Positions 18,019-62,915 of a DNA stretch of 64,000 nt are shown in pieces. Both the position numbers and the translations under genes were made by a program. The DNA is from Deltaproteobacteria bacterium (lineage in GTDB: Bacteria > Myxococcota_A > UBA796 > SXON01), in the NCBI GenBank assembly GCA_947484175.1, contig CANKOI010000005.1:1-64000 (forward strand). Direction: 5' to 3'. The notes under the pieces were generated by a model. That model did not search any database, was not told the origin of the DNA, and saw only the letters and a list, made by a program, of their open reading frames with translations. The number at the start of each line of letters is the position of its first letter. Position 1 is the stretch's first letter.

Positions 18019-21000
18019 ATGCACCTCCTCCTCCTGAGCCTCCCCGCCTTCGCCTTCCCCACCGACGCCGAATGGGTCGCCGTCGAAACGTCGGGCGCCG
18101 CCTTGGTGGACGACTTCAACGACCATGATCGGGAAGGCACGGGCAACCCCGATGCCATCGACTGTGTGGGCGACAACGCCGTTTCCGCCCCCGCGCTCTA
18201 CTGGTACACCGACGGCACCAGCCTGTGGTTCCGGATGCGGGTCGACGACACCCCCTGGCTTACGGCCGGCACCCTCCTGCAGCCCAACGCCTGGGCCTTC
18301 CTGATCGAAACGGACGGCAACCTCGACGACTTCGAGTACTCGCTCTCCGTCACCGGGGCCTCACCGACCGTTTACCTGTACCGCAACTCCAGCGGGGACG
18401 ACGGGGCCGACGCCTCCCTGGACTCACTCGAAGGCGTGCCGACGACCACCGGCTTCCAAGCGAGCGCCGCGGGAAGCACGATCCACACCCTCGAGGACTG
18501 GTTCGTAGACGTCGAAATCGATTTGGGCGAGCTCCCCGACAGCGTGAGATCGGGCCAGACCATCCGCGTGGCCGGCATCACGGGCGACTCCTCTACGCCA
18601 GACGGCGCCGACGCCGACCTCTGCGGCACCGACGACTCCGTGGCGCTCGGCCTGCTCACCGACGCGTGGAGTGAAGAATTCGGCGTCGATCGGGATGGCG
18701 ACGGGCTCCTCGACCTCGACGAGGTGACCGCGAGCACCGATCTCGACGACGCAGACTCCGACGACGACGGACTGAGCGACGGCGATGAGGTGAACATCTG
18801 GGGGAGCGACCCGCTGCGCTGTGACACCGATGGGGACTCGCTTGTTGACGGGTTGGAGGCTGGAGTGTCCGAGCCCATCGAGGGCACCGACCTCAGCGCC
18901 GCCTGCTTCCAAGCCGATGGCGACGCCGGAGCCACCACGACCAACCCCACGCTCGCCGACACCGACAGCGGTACGGTGAACGACAACGACGAGGACCGGG
19001 ACGGCGACGGCGTGGAAGGGAGCTGGGAGACAGACCCCAACGATCCTTCCGACGACAAAGACAGTAAAGACGAACCGGACGGAATCGCCGAGGCACTGGA
19101 AGACCGCTGCGCCGGCGAAGACGAGACCGACCGCGATGGCGACGGCGTGCCCGACATCGAGGAGGGACTCGCGGACACTGACGGCGACGGCCTCCCCGAT
19201 TTCTGCGACGAGGACGATGATGGAGACGGTGTGGCGACGGTCGAGGAAGGCGCCGCCGACAGCGACGCCGACGGACTTGACGACTACGAAGACCCGGACA
19301 GCGACAACAACGGCGTGGGGGACGGCGAAGAGCCCGCGGCGGACGTGGATAGTGACTGCGATGGCCTGACGGACCGCATCGACATGGACGACTCCGACGG
19401 GGACTGCGCCGACCCTGACGGCGACCTCCTCACCAACGCCGACGAGCGGGCGTGCGGCTCCGACCCCCAGAACCCCGACACCGACGGGGATGGCCTGTTG
19501 GACAGCGACGAAAGCTGCGACGAGGATGTGGACTGCGACGAGCTCACCGACATCCTCGACGCCGACGACGCCGACACGTCTGCCTGCGACTCGCCGGGCG
19601 ACACCGGCGCGGTGGGCGACACCAGCAGCGGTCCCACGTGCGTGAACGGGCTGTGCGACGGGCATTACACCGGCGGCTCGTGCTCGACGACGGGCGGAGC
19701 GGGCGCGGGCCTGCTTGGCGCCCTCGCGGCGGCCGGCCTCGCCGCCCGGAGGCGGCGTGCGGGCCTTCGTGGCGCCGCAGTCGTGATGGGAGCAGCGGCC
19801 GTCGTGTCCTCGCCGGCGCTGGCGGAGGAGCCAAGTGTGAACGCCCAACGGTTCCACCCCACCTTCGAAAGCGGCACGTTCATGACCGTGCACGACACGA
19901 GCCCCCACGCGCCCGGCGTGGGCCTCGGTCTGGTGTTCAATCAGGCGTCCCAACCGCTGATGTACCGGTACGGCGATGGGCGCGAGCCGGTGTCCGTCCT
20001 CGGCTCGGCCACCACGCTGGAGGTCGGAGGCAGCTACGCCACGAAGCGCCTCGCCCTGACGGTGAACATGCCGTTGCACGTGGTGGACGGCGACTTCATC
20101 GACGACGGCTTTGCTCCCGGCGATCTGCGCCTCGGCGTGCTCGCGAGCATTCTCGACCGAAAGAACGCGGGCGCCGGTTTCGGCCTGTACGGCAGTCTCG
20201 GACTCCCCACCGGCGACGGCGAGCGGTTCGTGGGAACGAACTCTCCCGAGGTGATCGCCGGCCTCGCGGGGAGCTACGGCGCAACGTGGGCGATGAGCGC
20301 AAACCTCGGAATGGCCATCGGCGCTCCGGCCTCGCTCGGCGACCTCAGTTGGGGCAGCCGGGCCCAGTGGGGCCTCGGCGTGCACGTTCCGATGCGTCGG
20401 GGCATCGCGCTCATCGGGGAGCTGGAAGGGGAGTCGGCGATCGCGAACATCGACGAAGTAGGCGGAACGCCCATCGAGTGGCGCGTCGGGGCAAGCGCCC
20501 AGACCAGTCGCACGGTCCTGTTCGATGTCGGTTTCGGCACGGGCCTGACGACCGGCATCGGGGCGCCCGAATACCGTGTCACGGCCGGCCTCAAGTACCT
20601 CCCCTCCTCAGTGGCGCGGGTGACCGCCGGGCTCGACCGGGATGGCGACGGCATCGTTGACGCCACCGACCTCTGCCCCGACCAGGCGGAGGACAAGAAT
20701 GGCCAGGCCGACGAAGACGGCTGCCCTGACGGCGGTTTCGTTCCCACCCACTTCGTCGTCACCGACCTCGGCGGCAGCCGCATCGCCGGCGCCTGGCTCG
20801 AGCTGTCGAGCGGTCCCGAGACCGGACGGTGGGCCCTCCCCTCCGGCGACGTGACCCGGTCGTTGCCCCCGGGCACCTACGCCCTCCGCGTGCGTGCCCC
20901 CCATTTCACGCCCGCGGAATCGTCGCTCACCGTCCCGGCCGACGCGCCTCGGCACGAACAGGTCGTGCAGCTCTCGCCCGCAGTGGCCGGCGGCACCCTG

Positions 21001-21666
21001 ATCCTGTCGGTACAGAACGAAGCGGGGCAGCCCGTTGCAGCGCTGGTGACCATCCTCGGCGAGGGCCGCAAGTTCACCACGGCCGGAGACGGCATCGGCA
21101 CGGAGGGCGTGCCGGTGGGTGAGGTGGAGCTCTCGGTGTGGGCCGAGGGGTACCGCCCCAAGCGCGTGAAGGTCAACGTGGCTGGCGGCGAGAAACAGAA
21201 CGTATCGGTGGTGCTCGATCTGACCCGCGTGGTGGTCCTCGCCGACCGGGTGGACATCCGCGACAAGGTGTTCTTCGACCTCGACAGCGCCACGATCACG
21301 GCCGCGAGCCACAACATCCTCGACGACGTGGCGGGCGCCCTCGAAAACCACGAGGAGCTGCGGCTCGTAGAGGTGCAGGGCCACACGGACGATCAGGGTG
21401 CGGAGGAGTACAACCTCGAGTTGTCCCAACGCCGCGCCGAGGCTGTCCGCGCCTACCTGATCGGCCAAGGCATCGAGGCCGAGCGCCTCGTGGCCCGCGG
21501 CTACGGCGAGAGCCAACCCCTCGAGTTTGGCACCAGCGAGAACTCACGCGAAGTGAACCGGCGCGTCGTATTCAAGATTCTGGCCGGCCCCCCCGAGTCC
21601 GATCGCCGCCCCGGCCGCCCCGGTCGTCCGGGTCGCCCCGGACCCGGCCCAGGCCGTCGGGACTGA
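18019..21666 (+). CDS. Fusion ORF: secreted TSP3-repeat protein, internal MYXO-CTERM-like sorting tail, second signal-like segment, then OmpA-type beta-barrel and peptidoglycan-binding domain
   Basis: DxDGDG repeats; GSCSTTGGAGAGLLGALAAAGLAARRRR; RRRRAGLRGAAVVMGAAAVVSSPALA|EE; FFDLDSATI...VEVQGHTDDQGAEEYNLELSQRRAEAVRAYL (OmpA). Confidence 0.85.
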   Translation: MHLLLLSLPAFAFPTDAEWVAVETSGAALVDDFNDHDREGTGNPDAIDCVGDNAVSAPALYWYTDGTSLWFRMRVDDTPWLTAGTLLQPNAWAFLIETDGNLDDFEYSLSVTGASPTVYLYRNSSGDDGADASLDSLEGVPTTTGFQASAAGSTIHTLEDWFVDVEIDLGELPDSVRSGQTIRVAGITGDSSTPDGADADLCGTDDSVALGLLTDAWSEEFGVDRDGDGLLDLDEVTASTDLDDADSDDDGLSDGDEVNIWGSDPLRCDTDGDSLVDGLEAGVSEPIEGTDLSAACFQADGDAGATTTNPTLADTDSGTVNDNDEDRDGDGVEGSWETDPNDPSDDKDSKDEPDGIAEALEDRCAGEDETDRDGDGVPDIEEGLADTDGDGLPDFCDEDDDGDGVATVEEGAADSDADGLDDYEDPDSDNNGVGDGEEPAADVDSDCDGLTDRIDMDDSDGDCADPDGDLLTNADERACGSDPQNPDTDGDGLLDSDESCDEDVDCDELTDILDADDADTSACDSPGDTGAVGDTSSGPTCVNGLCDGHYTGGSCSTTGGAGAGLLGALAAAGLAARRRRAGLRGAAVVMGAAAVVSSPALAEEPSVNAQRFHPTFESGTFMTVHDTSPHAPGVGLGLVFNQASQPLMYRYGDGREPVSVLGSATTLEVGGSYATKRLALTVNMPLHVVDGDFIDDGFAPGDLRLGVLASILDRKNAGAGFGLYGSLGLPTGDGERFVGTNSPEVIAGLAGSYGATWAMSANLGMAIGAPASLGDLSWGSRAQWGLGVHVPMRRGIALIGELEGESAIANIDEVGGTPIEWRVGASAQTSRTVLFDVGFGTGLTTGIGAPEYRVTAGLKYLPSSVARVTAGLDRDGDGIVDATDLCPDQAEDKNGQADEDGCPDGGFVPTHFVVTDLGGSRIAGAWLELSSGPETGRWALPSGDVTRSLPPGTYALRVRAPHFTPAESSLTVPADAPRHEQVVQLSPAVAGGTLILSVQNEAGQPVAALVTILGEGRKFTTAGDGIGTEGVPVGEVELSVWAEGYRPKRVKVNVAGGEKQNVSVVLDLTRVVVLADRVDIRDKVFFDLDSATITAASHNILDDVAGALENHEELRLVEVQGHTDDQGAEEYNLELSQRRAEAVRAYLIGQGIEAERLVARGYGESQPLEFGTSENSREVNRRVVFKILAGPPESDRRPGRPGRPGRPGPGPGRRD

Positions 21667-21684: not shown

Positions 21685-22338
21685 TCACGCGCCGCCGCCG
21701 CCCGCCCCAGCTACTTCTTGGCCGAACGTTCGGAGAAGTTCGACCCCCTCGCGATCATGCGCGATCACGCTGACACGGACGCGCGGCGTGCCCACGACGA
21801 GCCACTCGGTGAGTGGGAGGACCGTGACCGTGGTGTAGACGTAGGCCTCGTTCGGCACGGAGCCACCGAGTACCGCGCCCATCCGCTTGAGGGTGCCGCC
21901 GGCGAACAGCGTGTCGGTGGCCACCCGCAAGGCGAGGCCGTCGGGATCGACCCACGTGCCGCTCAGCACGGTGAAGTCGTTGGCCACCGCGCCCCAGTCC
22001 GTTGTTTCTTCGCCCATGACTCGCGACTTGTCTGTCGTCTGGGTGACGCCCTGTGAGGCCAACCACGCGGACACCGAGCGCTCCACCTTTTCCCCGAACT
22101 AGTCGAGCTCCGCGTTGTTCACAAGCGCGAGCACGCCCTCCAACACACCCAAGGTACCGCCATTCGACGTGTTGGGCACCGACGTCTCGATGATGGTGGA
22201 GACCATCAGCCCAGGCGCAGGCGCATCCGCCTTGAGGTCAGTAGAACGTACGACTTTCGTTGCGTAGCAGCCGGCCAAGAGCGGAGCGAATGCGAAGACA
22301 GAGACCACGAAAACTCCACGGGGTGCGCCGAGTATCAC
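21685..22338 (-). pseudogene. Lipoprotein gene interrupted by an in-frame TAG
   Basis: Lipobox FAFAPLLAG|CYATKVV...ALVNNAELD then TAG (22101-22099), same frame continues FGEKVERSVSAWLASQG... to 21685. Confidence 0.6.
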
Positions 22339-22440
22339 AACGGTCGGACGCCTGCTGGGGGCCGCCAGGGCCGTCGCAACGTCCGCGGGCACCTCGACCG
22401 GTCTCCGCCCGACGGTGTCCGATGACCGATTACCGGCGAC

Positions 22441-22496
22441 CGAGGTTCGAAAGGCGAATCTCGATAGCCGAGGTTCGAAAGCCGAAACTCGACTAG
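22441..22496. repeat. Two tandem copies of a 28-bp unit (cgaggttcgaaagscgaa...ctcga)
   Basis: cgaggttcgaaag at 22441 and 22469 with the following bases conserved. Confidence 0.6.
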
Positions 22497-22635
22497 CGAT
22501 CACCGAGCCCCGAACGTCGAGTCGCGTAATGCATCCGACGGATGAACGAGGTTCGATGAACGAACGCTCCCTGCGACTCCGGCAGGCCCCGGGTTGGTTC
22601 GGCTGCGGCGCTCTCGCGGTGGAGATGCGGGGCGC

Positions 22636-22764
22636 AACCACTACAGAATCGCGGCGGGCTCGGCCGCGGAGGCCTGCGCCGCCCTGGATCTGGTGGGCAC
22701 GTCCGAAGCACTGGCGCTCCAGCCGAAGCTTCGGCGGGTCGGGGCGATGTTGCGCGGGGAGTTC
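22636..22764 (+). pseudogene. Remnant resembling the C-terminus of a four-helix-bundle (S23-type) protein
   Basis: NHYRIAAGSAAEACAALDLVGTSEALALQPKLRRVGAMLRGEF; no complete gene upstream. Confidence 0.4.
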
Positions 22765-22767
22765 GCT

Positions 22768-23150
22768 GCCGGCAAGCACGGAGAGCATGAACCCTCGGTC
22801 CCACCCGCAGCGTTGTCGCCGCTTCACCATGCTCCGCTTCTTTCCCGGCGCCGTGCGCATCAAGTTCATTACGAGATGGCGCAGTACCGCCAGGTTCTGA
22901 GCGGCGTTTCCGGCTCGCACCCTGCACTGGTCCTCGTTGAACGTCATGTCCAGAACCCAGTGGAGCCCGTTCTCGATGCCCCAGTGCGCACGCACGACGC
23001 CCGCCACCGAAGCTGCTGTCGGGGTCGGAGTATTCACGACGAAGTAGGCTTGCTCCGTGGACACCTGGCCGGTGCGCTTGTCTTCACGTCGTCGGGCGAG
23101 GAGGCGGCGTCGAAGCTCCCGCGCACGGTCTTGCCGTCCAACGCTACGTG
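22768..23150 (-). mobile_element. ISAs1-family transposase relic with internal deletion/frameshift
   Basis: Frame 1 HVALDGKTVRGSFDAAS; shifted frame QAYFVVNTPTPTAASVAGVVRAHWGIENGLHWVLDMTFNEDQCRVRAGNAAQNLAVLRHLVMNLMR...GWDRGFMLSVLAG. Confidence 0.85.
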
Positions 23151-23159
23151 GCCGCCTTC

Positions 23160-24445
23160 CCACACCGTCCGCAGGCCGTGGACCCGATCACCTACGCCTA
23201 CACGTGGTTCGCGGACGGCACCGAGGTGCAGTCGGGCGAGAGCGACACCCTTGCGGCCGGGAGCTTTGCCAAGCACCAGCGCATCTCGGTGGAGGTGACC
23301 CCGAACGACGGGTTCACCGACGGCGAGGCGATGCTCTCTGCCGACGCGGTCGCGCTCAACAGCCAGCCCACGGCCACCGCCGCGAGCCTCGACCCCGCCA
23401 CCGCGTACGAGGCCTCCACGCTCACCTGCCTGCCCGCTGGCTTTGCCGACGCGGACGCGGACGCCGAGGGCTGGGCGTACAGCTAGTCCGTCAACGGCGC
23501 CGACGCCGCGACCGCCGCCACGCTCGACGGCAGCGCCTTCTCCAAGGGCGATTCCGTCGTCTGCACCGCCACTCCGTGGGACGGCGAAGAGAGCGGCGCG
23601 GCGGTCAGCTCCGCGGCGCTCACGATCTCCAACACGGCGCCCGTCCTCGCCAGCGCGGACCTGTCCACCACCACCCCCTCCGAGAACGACACGATCGCCG
23701 TGACGCTCGGCGCCGGCACCGACGACGACGGGGACACGATCAGCTACGGCTACGACTGGTACGTGAACGGAGCCGTCGCGAGCACATCGAGCACGCTGTT
23801 GGCGAACCGCTTCGCAAAGGGCGACAGCATGTACGTCGTGGTGACCCCCTGGGACGGCACCGACTACGGCACGGAGGCGAGCCGATGTGGGCGCTCGTGG
23901 AGTCGTGGTCACTGGCCTCGCAACCCGCGGGATCGACCGCTGCGAATGGCGCTTTCGGGGGTCAGTCGGTCGCGACCGTTGGCGGGTACTCGTGCTGGAA
24001 TCAGACCTCGGGCTGGAACTACTTGTGGATCCCGCACCCTGATCCCTCGGCCAGCCGGATGGCCATCGAGGTGGACGTGTATGTGAATACCGCGAGTGCA
24101 GAGTTTCTGGTGATGCCGATCGTGGACGGCCCGTTCTGGATTCCGAGCACGTTTATTCGGAACGGGATTGGGTTCGACTCCACCAGGGCGTGGTCCACAA
24201 TTTCGTACTCCTCGACCACGCTGGCCACCTACTCTGCGCTGGCGGCATCGTCCGTGTGGGTCACCGTTCGGCAGGACGTGGATCTGATCGAGGGTACCGT
24301 CACAGTCTACCGAGACGGCGTTGAGGTTGGCAGCGCGGGCGTCGACACTGCTGCCGCAGTCGGCTCCAACGTGCTTTTCAGCTCCTTCCAGCCGTTCTCT
24401 GGGAGTCACTGCTTCCAGAACCTCAACTTCTACACGGCTCCGTGA
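23160..24445 (+). pseudogene. Broken surface-protein gene: about 90-aa tandem repeats with an in-frame TAG, then frame-shifted into a separate C-terminal module
   Basis: Repeats ITYAYTWFADGTE.., AEGWAYS*SVNGAD.., TISYGYDWYVNGAV..; then MWALVESWSLASQPAGSTAANGAFGG... in another frame from about 23885 to TGA at 24445. Confidence 0.65.
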
Positions 24446-61889: not shown

Positions 61890-62915
61890 ATGTTCCTTCT
61901 AGTATCGCTCTGCGCCCCCGCCGAGGCCGGCTTCGTGGAGGTCTGGACCTACGATCGCTTCGAGGTGGACGCCGATCTCGCCGGGGCCGACGGCTGGGAG
62001 GGCGGCTACGACGGCGACCCCTGGAGCGGTGCTCGCGACGGCGGGGATTCTTGGGCATACTCGACGGCCGACCACGCGCCCACCGGCGACTTCGGCGCTG
62101 GCGGGCCCCATGACAACTGGCTCGTGCACGAGGCCGCCGACGTGCAGCAGGGCGCGTACACCGTCACGGCTTACCCCACCGACAATGACGCCTTCGGGGT
62201 GGTGTTCGGCCACAATCGGAACGACTACTACATGCTGCTGGTGTGCGGCGAAGAGGGCAACGACACCAGCATCCAGAGCTGCCCGATTTCGGGGCTCGCC
62301 GTGCATGTCACCGCGCTCGTCTACGTGAGCGGCTCGCAAGTAGAAGTGCTCGACTCGGCCGACCGAGGGGCGTCGACCTACGAGGAAGCGGAGGTGGACA
62401 TCGTCATGGACAACGGGCAATTGACCGCCACCATCGGACGTGTCTCGCTGAGCAGTGAAGTGGACGAGGACTTCGTGCTCAACGGGGTCGGCTTCTACGC
62501 GTTCAACGAAGGCGTATACGACGAAGCAGGCGAGAGCGACGGCGACACCGTGTTCTTCCGCAATCCCGTGCTCGCCGCGTTGGATGAAGACGACGACGGC
62601 GTGGTGGACGACGAGGACAACTGCGAGGCCGACTCCAACCCCGATCAGGAAGACGCCGACGGCGACGGCCTCGGCACCGCCTGCGACGAAGAAGAAGCCC
62701 CCGTGGACACCGGCTCCGGCGATACCGGGACCGACGACACCGGCGGAGGCGGCGGCGGTGGTGGCAAGAAGGACAACGGAACCGTGAGCATCAACAAGAC
62801 CGGCTGCGGCTGCGACGCGGGAGGCGGCGCCGCTGGAGTTGGGGCGGTGGCGCTGACCGTGGCGGCGTTGAGGCGGCGGCGGGGAGTGGCTGCGCTTCAA
62901 GAACGGAGAGGCTGA
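61890..62915 (+). CDS. Secreted protein with TSP3-like repeat and MYXO-CTERM-like C-terminal tail
   Basis: DEDDDGVVDDEDNCEADSNPDQEDADGDGLGTACD; DTGSGDTGTDDTGGGG linker; TGCGCDAGGGAAGVGAVALTVAALRRRRG. Confidence 0.8.
   Translation: MFLLVSLCAPAEAGFVEVWTYDRFEVDADLAGADGWEGGYDGDPWSGARDGGDSWAYSTADHAPTGDFGAGGPHDNWLVHEAADVQQGAYTVTAYPTDNDAFGVVFGHNRNDYYMLLVCGEEGNDTSIQSCPISGLAVHVTALVYVSGSQVEVLDSADRGASTYEEAEVDIVMDNGQLTATIGRVSLSSEVDEDFVLNGVGFYAFNEGVYDEAGESDGDTVFFRNPVLAALDEDDDGVVDDEDNCEADSNPDQEDADGDGLGTACDEEEAPVDTGSGDTGTDDTGGGGGGGGKKDNGTVSINKTGCGCDAGGGAAGVGAVALTVAALRRRRGVAALQERRG

Follow-up and report, generated by a model that had tools for sequence, protein, structure and literature searches.

A putative two-product precursor in Myxococcota, with a MYXO-CTERM signal and an internal signal peptide meeting at one arginine cluster

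Within the window (the whole 64,000-nucleotide stretch of DNA that was analysed), a single ORF on the plus strand (18019..21666) encodes 1215 amino acids and appears to specify a two-product precursor, composed of a TSP3 surface protein and a TraB-like barrel-OmpA protein. The plus-strand features of this ORF begin with an N-terminal signal peptide (MHLLLLSLPAFA followed by FP; 18019..18054), the start and AxA of which are kept in the sequences of relatives, and continue with a domain of ~210 residues (residues 14-222; 18058..18684) that has conserved W, D and R residues in alignment A6, and with Asp-rich TSP3-type repeats (18685..19626; PF18884). An internal MYXO-CTERM signal (19672..19758), supported by TIGR03901 and by ortholog conservation, then comprises GG-x-C555, a first helix and RRRR. 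It is followed by an internal signal peptide (19759..19824), which is hydrophobic, ends in A-L-A and has a predicted signal peptidase I cut at 19824/19825, as judged from Ala conservation and from the frequency of Gln at +1 in the wider set of junctions. The remainder of the ORF encodes a 12-strand outer-membrane beta-barrel (19915..20598, model residues 83-310; AF2, Foldseek and the TraB profile), a short TSP3 linker between the barrel and the periplasmic domains (20632..20730; sequence DRDGDGIVDATDLCPDQAEDKNGQADEDGCPD, aligned in the TraB-like family), a CarboxypepD_reg/PEGA-type periplasmic domain (21007..21216; PF13620 and PF08308) and an OmpA peptidoglycan-binding domain (21271..21561; PF00691, E 1.7e-22, with PDB relatives). 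In the adjoining ORF, 22099-23163 on the minus strand, the first part of the product appears to be the terminal portion of a putative IS transposase (HWGIENGLHWVLDMTFNEDQCRVRAGNAAQNLAVLRHLVMNLMR).

The junction between the two halves (CDGHYTGGSCSTTGGAGAGLLGALAAAGLAARRRRAGLRGAAVVMGAAAVVSSPALAEEPSVN) is open in frame, with C555 at 19681-19683, the RRRR cluster at 19747..19758 and ALA at 19816-19824, and the original prediction of one ORF with an internal sorting tail and no stop at the junction is correct to the letter. The internal tail has the Cys, helix and Arg cluster of the MYXO-CTERM signature and scores 22.8 bits on TIGR03901 against a cut-off of 20 (20.3 bits in a second run). The first half had been described as a secreted TSP3 protein with a tail like that of the protein encoded at 61890, and the latter tail was correctly described. 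ORF 61890-62915 encodes an ordinary MYXO-CTERM-like protein with a terminal GCGCDAGGG-TM-RRRR tail, which carries RRRRGVAALQERRG after the helix and is longer than most. Among the 21 MYXO-CTERM matches in the genome, the internal tail is the sole non-terminal one (no stop within ~30 residues of the Arg cluster): 635 residues follow its RRRR, whereas the other 20 tails lie at the extreme C-terminus. The second signal likewise has the features of a signal peptide, namely an RRRR n-region, a mean hydropathy of 2.0 and an AxA cut site, but it is internal rather than at the N-terminus of a translation product and has no conserved start codon.

The N-terminal domain (residues 14-222) has no Pfam match and no PDB sequence relative, and its AF2 model is too poor (pLDDT 50) to be used for fold assignment. 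In the N half as a whole, NCBIfam gave no match to TraA (NF033759) and PA14 was absent from the Pfam search. For the C half, AF2 predicts 12 long strands (barrel pLDDT mostly 80-96) followed by periplasmic domains and OmpA. In a Foldseek search, the barrel resembled FapF (5o68) and the COG4313 channel (4rl8), which were retained as matches for this part only; the top matches, 6fwv and FimD ushers, were discarded because their rmsd exceeded 20. The TraB profile matches the C half at the barrel (40.9 bits) and at OmpA (98.6 bits), and the domain order of barrel, TSP3 and OmpA is that of TraB, yet the NF033763 score of the C half is 145 bits against a cut-off of 700, whereas M. xanthus TraB itself scores 1018. 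Because the profile matches both domains and the score falls far below the TraB cut-off, the C half, judged by its sequence, is TraB-like and not TraB. The expectation of a signal-like start and an OmpA domain in the second half was correct, but the term 'OmpA-type porin' does not describe a TraB-like 12-strand barrel joined to a TSP3 linker, PEGA/CarboxypepD-type domains and an OmpA domain.

Full-length fused orthologs are present in 24 other genomes, and a search among relatives recovered them from the same genus, from the same family and from families further away within the order. All 25 orthologous ORFs retain the fused frame, and their C halves are 38-78% identical to that of the window protein. 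In an alignment of the hairpin from 25 orthologs, Cys and RRR are invariant or nearly so, GG-x-Cys is likewise kept, and both Ala of AxA are invariant in 25/25. Apart from these residues no hairpin position is invariant: both helices vary freely among the 25 aligned junctions, and the residue between the two Ala is among the most variable positions (2.65 bits). Retention of the fused frame together with Cys, the Arg cluster and AxA in 25 orthologs goes far beyond chance. There were no inverted repeats of note at the junction, and the AF2 model of the hairpin supports neither side, as its confidence is low (pLDDT below 50 for residues 1-54).

The window's genome is fragmented and incomplete (167 contigs), and a stop lost, or a frameshift introduced, by sequencing or binning error might in principle have joined two separate genes. 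We consider such an artefact extremely improbable and rejected assembly error, because the same fusion is conserved across relatives: it recurs in the orthologous group, with 24 further genomes, and in an M. xanthus genome.

A different possibility is that the fusion is only apparent and that the OmpA half is translated as a separate product. The original prediction had offered the in-frame ATG at 19786..19788 (plus strand) as the start of such a product, and an in-frame GTG (19783) lies just before it. These two codons in the linker of this one sequence would permit separate initiation, and the second gene of related split loci does start at the same place. However, the ATG is not conserved, being missing from the nearest relative (L009), whose linker lacks any start codon, and no Shine-Dalgarno site precedes ATG 19786 in the window. 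No ATG, GTG or TTG occurs between the Arg cluster and AxA in 27 of the 77 fused junctions that we verified across the phylum (see below), 67 of the 77 have no ATG there, and a start codon with a Shine-Dalgarno match of at least 5 bases was found in only one. In addition, all 7 genome pairs compared have a pN/pS below 1 along the linker, where synonymous divergence shows no reduction. The linker is thus translated and under constraint at the protein level, and nothing points to a start site embedded in it. We therefore rejected ATG 19786 as an internal start, and two separate translation products, begun there or at the GTG, are very unlikely.

The original prediction had also called for a check of whether the two halves occur separately in homologues. 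They do so as neighbouring genes, broken where a fusion of two signals would predict: in related loci the first gene stops right after RRRR and the next has its own ATG and an ordinary signal peptide, as in traA-traB. In one split ortholog (L034, G038:C151), a TGA follows directly after FRRREDD and is succeeded by an SD-like AGAGG and then an ATG. The window's own genome also has unfused pairs (L260 on C10, L262 on C30 and L265 on C20) in which a MYXO-CTERM-like gene lies directly upstream of a signal-peptide barrel-OmpA gene. In a tree of 119 barrel halves the window protein falls in a supported clade of 33 fused members and one split member, the latter being the ortholog just described, and a clade of 24 unfused members adjoins it. 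Across the tree as a whole, counting by starred branches gives at least 8 changes of the fused state and parsimony gives 13, compared with 38 expected if states were shuffled; the pair and solo labels in this tree are heuristic and some are blurred by contig ends. Several barrel-OmpA families of the phylum seem to have an adjacent MYXO-CTERM partner.

Persistence of the fusion over long times, as in 33/34 members of the window's clade, might be taken to mean that the mature protein is full-length and that its hydrophobic stretches are a fixed membrane linker running from the surface domain to the barrel. We regard this as very improbable, since a hairpin in the inner membrane would hold back a barrel that belongs in the outer membrane, since two-gene split homologues with an ordinary tail and an ordinary signal peptide exist, and since an invariant AxA would have no role in a linker.

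To survey fused junctions, we ran a junction profile on 284 genomes of the phylum, retrieved 60 matches and read their junctions, counting those that had an open frame and no fewer than 150 upstream residues and including the orthologs and M. xanthus. The 77 fused junctions verified in this way come from 70 genomes and 22 families of Myxococcota, numbers that describe spread and not frequency among all such loci, as the loci were found with the junction profile itself. Most of them (72/77) were parsed automatically as Cys-helix-R cluster-helix-AxA. Gln is the residue after AxA in 37 of these 72, and the parser had scored that position for hydropathy only and not for identity. NCBIfam models (E<=0.05) call the tail MYXO-CTERM in 21/25 near and 33/52 distant junctions, and the midcut model weakly matches five (1/25 near and 4/52 distant). 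G and Cys are invariant across the 52 distant junctions. The earlier suggestion that RRRR has two roles, closing the sorting tag and forming the n-region of the second signal, gains support from the strict conservation of Cys, RRR and AxA, from Gln being the commonest residue after AxA, and from split homologues that are broken exactly between the two signals.

The genome encodes candidate machinery for handling the first of these signals. A CPBP protease of the myxosortase family (L089:976-1872, on G000:C15) scores 112.2 bits on Mrt_core (NF040914) against a cut-off of 100, so that the genome check proposed in the original prediction gave a positive result. Its scores fall below the subfamily cut-offs (161 bits against 250 for MrtP, the best, and 112 against 180 for MrtX), and by sequence it might possibly represent an undescribed myxosortase subfamily. 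A type II secretion secretin is also present (GspD, TIGR02517, 530.9 bits against a cut-off of 351), so that a myxosortase-family enzyme and a type II secretion component both accompany the MYXO-CTERM proteins of this genome. Signal peptidase I is a general enzyme. The original prediction had envisaged a polyprotein cut by a sortase-like protease. The polyprotein part is supported by the conservation of Cys, RRR and AxA and by the split homologues, but one sortase-like enzyme would not suffice, because the two cuts would call for different proteases: a myxosortase of the CPBP type for one and signal peptidase I for the other.

It is also conceivable that signal peptidase I cuts alone, in which case the barrel half would be freed, the TSP3 half would stay in the inner membrane or be shed with the hairpin, and the MYXO-CTERM signal would be a relic. 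Within the second signal, AxA is indeed the part under the strictest conservation, and the low subfamily scores of the genome's myxosortase would fit with this possibility. Nevertheless, a relic should decay, whereas the orthologs show no variation in GG-x-Cys or the Arg cluster either, G and Cys are invariant even in the distant junctions, and in TraA, cleavage of the MYXO-CTERM signal by myxosortase depends on these conserved Cys residues (PMC11980579). Cleavage by signal peptidase I alone is therefore rather unlikely.

We think it probable that the ORF is the precursor of two paired envelope proteins, a covalently joined traA-traB-like couple that would be cut by both myxosortase and signal peptidase I. 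This proposal takes as its starting points the open frame, the conservation of both signals, the myxosortase-family enzyme and type II secretin encoded in the genome, and the split-gene homologues, all of which are observed. The N-terminal signal peptide would start export and the TSP3 half would be translocated until helix 1 of the internal MYXO-CTERM signal stopped transfer, leaving RRRR in the cytoplasm. Helix 2, with RRRR now serving as its n-region, would be an internal signal peptide that restarts export of the C half, and the two helices would form a hairpin in the inner membrane as a stop-transfer followed immediately by a start-transfer. The very short cytoplasmic turn of this hairpin counts against the proposal, as do the low subfamily scores of the myxosortase and the low TraB score of the C half. 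Signal peptidase I would cut after ALA (602/603), releasing the barrel-OmpA half to insert into the outer membrane. Myxosortase would cut near C555, releasing the TSP3 half, probably lipidated on C555, which the type II system would then bring to the cell surface. If the two products do pair, the fusion would fix their ratio at 1:1, as TraA and TraB act 1:1 (PMC12045341), and would tie a surface protein to a peptidoglycan-bound partner; such a pair might plausibly form an adhesin unit.

The architecture itself is already known from MXAN_5598, of which the window protein is a further case. In MXAN_5598 an internal MYXO-CTERM separates an adhesin from a barrel-OmpA part, an arrangement that may stem from gene fusion, and Guo, Haft and Wall (2025, PMC11980579), who term internal MYXO-CTERM motifs rare, liken this protein to TraAB and propose that its N part is processed and surface-anchored. 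The text of that paper makes no mention of a second signal peptide. MXAN_5598 has been detected in proteomics of M. xanthus outer-membrane vesicles (PMC4158809). Both proteins combine a secreted N half, an internal MYXO-CTERM, an outer-membrane barrel and an OmpA domain in one ORF. In the M. xanthus AM003 genome, an ORF with the same architecture (L132:32-5593), which we take to be the MXAN_5598 ortholog, lies directly upstream of ftsZ, has the junction GRGCSSSGAG-TM-RFRR-TM2-AVA followed by Q, and matches the window protein over 237-904 with 38% identity. The N half of MXAN_5598 is a large Ig-like/Big adhesin, whereas that of the window protein consists of its N domain and TSP3 repeats. MXAN_5598 also lies beside ftsZ in the cell-division cluster, but no linkage of this kind was found for the window gene, as tblastn of FtsZ gave no match in the window or in the fetched loci other than that of M. 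xanthus. To that description our analysis adds a second, internal signal peptide in which the Ala residues of AxA never vary, several arguments against a start within the ORF, homologues in which the two genes are split, and recurrence throughout the phylum.

The TraA-TraB pair offers a two-gene parallel, in which a MYXO-CTERM surface protein is followed by a barrel-TSP3-OmpA partner (PMC3325183, PMC6372800, PMC12045341). The traA and traB genes overlap (PMC3325183), and TraB is proposed to hold the TraA-TraB pair to peptidoglycan (PMC12045341). In contrast to this pair, the window has a single gene, and the PA14-like domain and Cys-rich repeats of TraA were not found in its N half. Sorting-type signals composed of a motif, a TM and Arg residues in mid-protein are also seen in NCBIfam midcut-by-XrtH proteins and, as cited in PMC11980579, in a substrate of Haloferax ArtA whose tripartite signal is not terminal (Abdul Halim 2017), but the sorting enzymes differ from that proposed here. 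We searched the literature for bacterial precursors that give rise to two products and contain an internal signal peptide, and retrieved nothing of relevance. For the ArtA and midcut-by-XrtH cases, we know of no internal signal peptide joined to a barrel protein.

Looking across the phylum, we lean towards the view that Myxococcota have repeatedly merged the sorting signal of one protein's C-terminus with the signal peptide of another's N-terminus, forming one membrane hairpin with a single, shared Arg cluster. The resulting proteins would be dedicated two-product precursors, cut at both hairpin ends by myxosortase and signal peptidase I and yielding, at a fixed 1:1 ratio, a surface protein and the partner that anchors it in the outer membrane. 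If both cuts take place, this would be a bacterial precursor of two envelope proteins destined for different outer-membrane places, in which one Arg cluster is common to the sorting signal and the signal peptide. The single oddity of MXAN_5598 would then become a general feature of Myxococcota, and the fusion would be a genetically linked route to pairs of surface protein and anchor like TraA-TraB. The fused genes would also be natural substrates for testing myxosortase and signal peptidase on one hairpin.

Some genomes encode more than one fused hairpin protein. At least three different ones are found in a single genome of the survey (G130; L187, L190 and L191), and the window's own genome has a second fused hairpin ORF (L263, G000:C53:17500-25500), which starts at 2815, encodes 770 aa and has a shorter N half (SECSASPGLVSLWPLLLVLLAVVRRAGPALAALLLLLPTPSRADG).
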